A stretch of DNA of 42,809 nt from a virus: positions 1 through 42,809 of IMG/VR virus record IMGVR_UViG_3300037488_000189, one strand, 5' to 3'. The position numbers were made by a program, and so were the translations under genes. The notes below the pieces were generated by a model. The model did not search any database and was not told where the DNA came from. It saw only the letters and a list, made by a program, of their open reading frames with translations. This document shows positions 1,556-1,607 of the stretch, one piece after another (the stretch's first letter is position 1; each line of letters starts with the position of its first letter).

Positions 1556-1580
1556 TGCACAAAAATGCACAAATTGCACA
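1556..1580. repeat. Three helically phased TGCACA repeats
   Basis: TGCACA at 1556-1561, 1566-1571 and 1575-1580, starts 10 and 9 bp apart, immediately upstream of the TATATTTG box. All copies are on one face of the helix, over the -55 to -30 region. The same hexamer recurs upstream at 1222, 1242 and (inverted) 1367. Confidence 0.5.
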
Positions 1581-1599
1581 ATTTATTTAATAAAAACAT

Positions 1600-1607
1600 T
1601 ATATTTG
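1600..1607 (+). promoter_or_regulatory. TATATTTG promoter for the phosphoesterase unit
   Basis: Consensus TAnnTTTG box with an ATTG (1573-1576) about 23 nt upstream as a possible weak -33 element. Predicted start is near 1611-1615, giving a leader of about 65 nt before the ATG at 1678, unlike the near-zero leaders of the minus-strand late genes. Confidence 0.6.

Follow-up and report, generated by a model that had tools for sequence, protein, structure and literature searches.

Three copies of the hexamer TGCACA stand close together ahead of a promoter box in a phage genome, and an earlier note on this DNA had taken their phasing as a sign of cooperative binding by a phage regulator or an origin-binding protein. 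What does the region that carries them do? It lies in a virus record of IMG/VR (IMGVR_UViG_3300037488_000189), a linear fragment of 42.8 kb that was analysed over its full length of 42,809 nucleotides (the window). The left part of the window contains the 3' portion of a ribonucleotide reductase gene, then an A/T-rich gap (33% G+C), an ORF of 61 aa (1678-1863, + strand) to which no function is assigned, and a gene for an SbcD/Mre11-like exonuclease of 370 aa (1850-2962, + strand; phrog_704 DNA repair exonuclease, E 3e-73), while the virion and packaging genes follow beyond the exonuclease gene on the opposite strand. Ten relatives that share this gene order served as the comparison set; protein identity to the window genes is 97-99% in three of them and 79-89% in the others. 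The 61-aa ORF product shares 79-97% identity with its counterparts in the ten close relatives, and a version of it can also be detected in distant ones. The DNA comes from a tailed phage that probably has a host among the Bacteroidota, as suggested by the promoter type and the hairpin RNA described below.

Results

The TGCACA copies

The triple (TTGCACA AAAA TGCACA AAT TGCACA, 1555-1580, + strand) consists of copies that start at 1556, 1566 and 1575. Their positions (1556-1561, 1566-1571 and 1575-1580, + strand) ahead of the box TATATTTG at 1600-1607 were confirmed in the sequence, as were the further copies at 1222 and 1242 (+ strand) and at 1367 (- strand). The intergenic region 1085-1679 is enriched in the hexamer, with six copies versus 0.68 expected, a number reached by 0.04% of 5000 first-order Markov sequences. 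Three copies of any hexamer within 25 bp occur in 0.7% of Markov sequences, and the full 26-bp string of the triple is found once, versus none in 100 shuffles with up to three mismatches allowed. A search for such clusters over the whole window, in line with the check that the earlier note had proposed, returned a background frequency (23 copies found, 28.4 expected) and the triple as the sole cluster. A genome-wide TGCACA regulon was therefore rejected, on the grounds of this frequency and of the lack of TGCACA clusters at other intergenic regions or promoters of the phage or its relatives. The six copies in the gap do not form one array, because those at 1242 and 1367 are parts of an 18-bp repeat, TGCACATTATAATGGTTA, which is present at 1242-1259 and 1355-1372 in opposite orientations. 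In the relatives L002-L004 this repeat was seen as two direct copies, 41 bp apart.

Promoter P2 and its surroundings

Promoters of the Bacteroidota sigma-A type have the consensus TTG-N17-23-TAnnTTTG. The third TGCACA copy lies in a matching arrangement, P2 (1574-1607, + strand), in which the TTG of TTG(CACAATT) at 1574-1576 is followed by a spacer of 23 nt and by the -7 box TATATTTG at 1600-1607. The promoter that had been claimed downstream of the triple is supported: all ten relatives have TAnnTTTG at this place, the variants in the alignment being TATATTTG, TATCTTTG or TAACTTTG, and in all of them it is accompanied by the leader TTGTTCATATCTCGTT. At the position of the third copy (TTGCACAATT), or shifted from it by no more than about one base, GTTRATAACT or GTTTACAACT is found in other alleles and TTGAACAATT or TTGAAGAATT in distant relatives. 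Because these are -33-like sequences, the third copy, a TTGCACA at the proper distance, is read as the -33 region. P2 is best read, on the basis of its sequence, as a Bacteroidota-type promoter (TTG-N23-TAnnTTTG) serving the 61-aa ORF and the exonuclease gene. The relatives share the box TAnnTTTG, which recurs at many of the chromosomal abi hairpins as well as at a second promoter of the window, P1; what sets P2 apart from the consensus arrangement is a further pair of TGCACA copies that precede the -33 region. Promoters of the E. coli sigma-70 type were also considered and were dismissed, as their matches were not in excess.

Two inverted repeats upstream of P2 are possible operators, namely GGCAGAATTACTAATAATTGCC at 1508-1529, which is present in nine of the ten relatives and absent from L087, and TTGCCA-N14-TGGCAA at 1525-1550, which is present in the seven relatives that retain AAATGTTTGC. 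Downstream of P2, the 5' leader (1608-1677, + strand) contains the conserved TTGTTCATATCTCGTT and a terminator-like hairpin (1631-1662) that is followed by T6 just ahead of the start codon, the whole spanning 1631-1668. The leader is conserved in all ten relatives, it has a folding energy of -20.7 kcal/mol (z -3.1), and matches to its string are confined to records of the window's own phage family. The conserved hairpin before the start codon suggests attenuation or a second short RNA. In three more distant relatives (L008, L010 and L139) a hairpin of the GGGG...CCCC type was noticed at the place of the leader hairpin.

The block upstream of the -7 box exists in three alleles among the aligned relatives, of which the triple is one. 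It is present in four of the ten relatives (L006, L007, L086 and L090), with one additional A, so that the spacing is 11+9 instead of the 10+9 of the window. The phasing, the conservation of which in relatives the earlier note had listed as a check, is thus shifted by 1 bp. In the remaining six (L002-L005, L087 and L088) the triple is replaced, and the promoter is nonetheless kept. This group includes L002-L004, which are closest to the window by coding sequence, so recombination has probably swapped the upstream block. We also rejected the idea that three TGCACA copies ahead of TAnnTTTG are a motif of phages in general: a scan of viral DNA gave at least 119 stretches, but among the matches listed the promoter position 19 nt beyond copy 3 was flagged only for close relatives.

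A second promoter and a hairpin RNA

P1 and the hairpin RNA that follows it lie 85 bp upstream of the triple, in the gap shared with P2. P1 (1390-1433, + strand) has the box TATATTTG at 1426-1433 and an inverted repeat upstream of it, and this arrangement of 44 bp is common to nine aligned records. The inverted repeat reads TGCACAA...TTGTGCA in L002-L004 and TGCGAAA...TTTCGCA in L005 and L088, and it is imperfect in the window (TGCAAAA...TTTATGCA). The spacing from the box TATATTTG to the RNA core is 27 nt, compared with 26-27 nt in chromosomal abi units.

The AbiF-type hairpin RNA (1443-1490, + strand) has a length of about 45 nt and is composed of a stem-loop (1443-1479), which contains the 18-nt core GCATACCGTMAGATCTGC at 1453-1470, and a U-rich tract (1480-1490). 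The hairpin folds with -17.7 kcal/mol (z -3.1). A covariance model, R1, scored 61.9 bits on the window (E 1e-16 to 1e-17), the window being among the sequences from which R1 was built. In an alignment of 71 phage and bacterial copies, which excluded those with an extended 3' arm, 88.5% of the stem cells are paired, versus 33-41% with slid partners, and 104 double changes are seen in the stem, versus 38 in shuffles. The RNA is absent from the close relatives L004 and L087, and therefore it is accessory cargo and not part of the core genome.

Several side observations concern the same region. In L004 (1330-1830) about 500 bp that appear to be coding on the opposite strand take the place of the hairpin, and a similar stretch adjoins the hairpin of L219. 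Between the hairpin and P2, tRNA-like sequences were noticed in L002 and L003 (5545-5660 in both), L005 (5378-5680) and L088 (7380-7495); their ends and T-arm are readable and they have long inserts in the region of the D-arm, and ARAGORN and Rfam made no call.

Most bacterial copies precede Abi_2 toxin genes

The exact core GCATACCGTMAGATCTGC was found in 75 stretches of GTDB genomes, mostly of Bacteroidota, compared with an estimated 15 or so by chance; in the few matches outside Bacteroidota the stem is mostly missing. As the core was collected by exact match, the loop is conserved in this sample partly by design. A relative of Abi_2 is encoded nearby at 54 of the 76 bacterial places, and at about 50 of the 76 an Abi_2 (AbiD/AbiF) gene begins 38-47 nt downstream of the hairpin; the downstream genes were identified as Abi_2 by Pfam and as AbiD by PADLOC. 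Some of the remaining copies have no Abi_2 gene downstream, and in four Bacteroidota genomes (L411, L449, L456 and L468) the core precedes, by eye, a gene for a type I restriction subunit instead. Because of these copies, including the four before restriction-like genes, the hairpin could also be a plain terminator or leader element.

Other Abi_2 genes of Bacteroidota are preceded by related hairpins, the loops of which differ (GCUUCCCGUMAGAACAGC, among others); a genuine RF03085 RNA precedes one of these genes in the same layout. Judged from these loci, the type of RNA tracks the subfamily of the Abi_2 toxin. A search of the phylum with R1, which is specific to one subfamily, matched two of 296 genomes under strict filters. 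The nearest solved structure to Abi_2 is 8vz6, whose RNxxxxH motif includes R210 and H215. The residues of PbAbiF named in a study of AbiF (PMC12373285) fit R210 and H215 of 8vz6, which we infer to be the PbAbiF structure.

The Rfam abiF model RF03085 did not match the region in the window, even at E values up to 5, or the chromosomal copies tested, while a positive control from the same phylum (L499) was matched; known Rfam RNAs in the gap gave matches at chance level only. As the Rfam abiF model gives no match, we regard the hairpin as a type of its own among the abiF-like RNAs. In RF03085, AbiFr and RCd22, which are RNA antitoxins of Abi_2 HEPN RNases, the same elements are found: an outer covarying stem, an inner helix of 3 bp, a loop of 11-12 nt, a terminator-like end and a promoter of their own, and the bacterial copies likewise lie directly before the Abi_2 gene (PMC12373285). 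The hairpin described here differs from RF03085 in that the core GCATACCGTMAGATCTGC replaces the consensus and in that the phage copy has no toxin gene. Of the hallmarks of the RNA antitoxin class of Abi_2 systems in the wider sense, a conserved hairpin with a covarying stem is present, and the position directly upstream of Abi_2 is occupied in bacteria (about 50 of 76), whereas the phage copy is an orphan.

Nearly all phage copies are orphans

The exact core GCATACCGTMAGATCTGC occurs in at least 119 stretches of viral contigs, versus only a few by chance (estimate), and the viral loci with the hairpin fall into 19 clusters of DNA similarity. Of the loci fetched around 136 viral places, 135 lack an Abi_2 gene; in the remaining one, L250, an abi gene lies directly downstream, as it does in chromosomes. 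None of 55 whole phage records (12 to 160 kb, many of them fragments, and the window included) contained an Abi_2 gene. In 28 of 96 cases a tRNA or tmRNA gene is found no more than 300 nt from the phage hairpin, compared with 8% at random positions.

BLAST searches for named phages with four versions of the hairpin gave matches of chance length only, apart from a shared 5' scaffold of the crAss-like phage cr6_1, and R1 did not match crAss001, DAC15 or phi14:2. Phage cr6_1 has a looser version, the inner module of which resembles, by eye, those of other Abi_2 leaders. A longer RNA scaffold, GCCCTAAGTACACGGGATCG...AATCGTnAGTAGGC, was seen in cr6_1 (L503, 3000-3140) and also in L162, L171, L200, L005 and L088, and the AbiF-type inner module that it carries varies from phage to phage.

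Discussion

The reading that we favour, and that we consider fairly probable, is that the gap from 1085 to 1677 is a two-promoter region, in which a host-type promoter, P2, carries the triple, and P1 drives an orphan anti-Abi_2 decoy RNA. P2, with the third TGCACA as its -33 element, would transcribe the 61-aa ORF and the exonuclease gene. P1 would transcribe the hairpin RNA of about 45 nt, which would end in its own terminator. The RNA belongs to a family that accompanies the Abi_2 (AbiD/AbiF) toxin genes of Bacteroidota, the toxin gene being missing here, and the orphan RNA of the phage would bind and neutralise a host Abi_2 RNase of the matching subfamily in trans, like RNA antitoxins. The analysis shows the sequences, the conservation of the promoters, the RNA family with its covarying stem, the linkage to the toxin gene in bacteria and the lack of that gene in phages, whereas the transcription of the RNA, its binding to Abi_2 and its role against the defence are what we infer.

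It should be noted that the local clustering of TGCACA is significant, which speaks for a regulator, while the absence of the triple from six of ten relatives, the shift of the phasing and the lack of clusters at other promoters speak against it. Cooperative binding of a phage regulator at the triple is possible. One form of it would be an operator, at which a dimeric regulator of the phage or the host recognises TGCACAA half-sites in the P1 inverted repeat and the P2 triple and times both units. We regard this as a minor possibility. TGCACAA does form half of the P1 inverted repeat in several relatives, which keeps an operator in consideration, and in L005 and L088 the TGCGAAA half has a matching change in the opposite half. 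However, P1 of the relatives has only single half-sites, and six of the ten relatives have the P2 promoter but not the triple, the spacing being 11/9 in the other four. Four relatives with coding DNA that is for the most part roughly 70-90% identical have the triple in almost unchanged form, but this near-identity of the block may reflect recent recombination, as the relatives nearest by coding sequence lack it. It is likewise a minor possibility that the triple arose by chance or slippage in A/T-rich DNA and has no function apart from that of the third copy. The A-runs between the copies differ in length among the relatives, and among the matches listed there are many unrelated phages with TGCACA triples, the surroundings of which vary; on the other hand, the low frequency of such clusters in sequences of this composition and the persistence of the triple in five records do not fit well with this explanation. 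That the gap is a replication origin with TGCACA as an iteron, so that the copies would attract an origin-binding protein, is very improbable. The gap is A/T-rich and contains inverted and direct repeats, but a switch of the G/C skew is absent, repeat content and spacing vary among the relatives, the copies at 1242 and 1367 are parts of a separate repeat, and the gap of L087 is only 263 bp long, most of it being missing. In our reading as a two-promoter region, the first and second copies would either be neutral or have no larger role than that of an optional operator or a tuning element. Taken alone, the triple is a modest and ordinary, if curious, feature of a promoter, and the orphan AbiF-type RNA matters more.

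Alternatively, the hairpin at 1443-1479 might do no more than terminate transcription, and its loop might owe its conservation to some other role, such as that of a processing signal in the tRNA/tmRNA operons of phages. The U-tract at its end and its location between tRNA genes or beside a tmRNA gene in many phages would agree with this, which we nevertheless regard as unlikely, as the 18-nt core lies directly before Abi_2 genes at some 50 bacterial loci, the type of RNA tracks the toxin subfamily, and a fixed loop of 12 nt would be superfluous for a terminator. For the decoy, related cases exist. The pseudo-ToxI of phage PhiTE is an antitoxin mimic directed against a type III toxin-antitoxin system. 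The TifA protein of T4-like phages also mimics an antitoxin against a type III system (PMC10853763). These cases and the present proposal have in common that abortive infection based on an RNase is neutralised by a product of the phage, here proposed to be an RNA; the differences are that the toxin family is HEPN Abi_2 instead of ToxN and that the present case is proposed from sequence. The abiF RNA of C. difficile binds its Abi_2 toxin directly and neutralises it also in trans (PMC12373285), and, according to its entry in the reference list of PMC12737573, a study of the year 2000 deals with a DNA region of the lactococcal phage sk1 that protects another phage from AbiF. An abiF-type RNA carried by a phage has a parallel in cyanophage S-CREM1, which has an orphan RF03085 abiF sRNA gene in a genome that is also rich in tRNA genes; the accessible part of that report offers no decoy role (PMC9964418). 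The RNA of S-CREM1 differs in sequence class from the present hairpin, which is spread over at least 119 viral stretches. The present phage RNA may be a decoy that blocks the Abi_2/AbiF defence.

An 18-nt signature thus ties about a hundred distinct loci of uncultured phages to one bacterial defence family, and it defines a class of Abi_2 RNAs in Bacteroidota that is missed by the current Rfam abiF model. A decoy role would explain why toxin-free copies are found beside the tRNA genes of phages. Whether a large group of Bacteroidota phages uses free-standing Abi_2/AbiF antitoxin RNAs, often placed among tRNA/tmRNA genes, as decoys is, in our estimation, evenly balanced. AbiF has been reported to be the ancestor of Cas13 (PMC12373285, PMC12737573), and, if the proposal is true, these phages would possess an RNA-only counter-defence against the family from which Cas13 arose.
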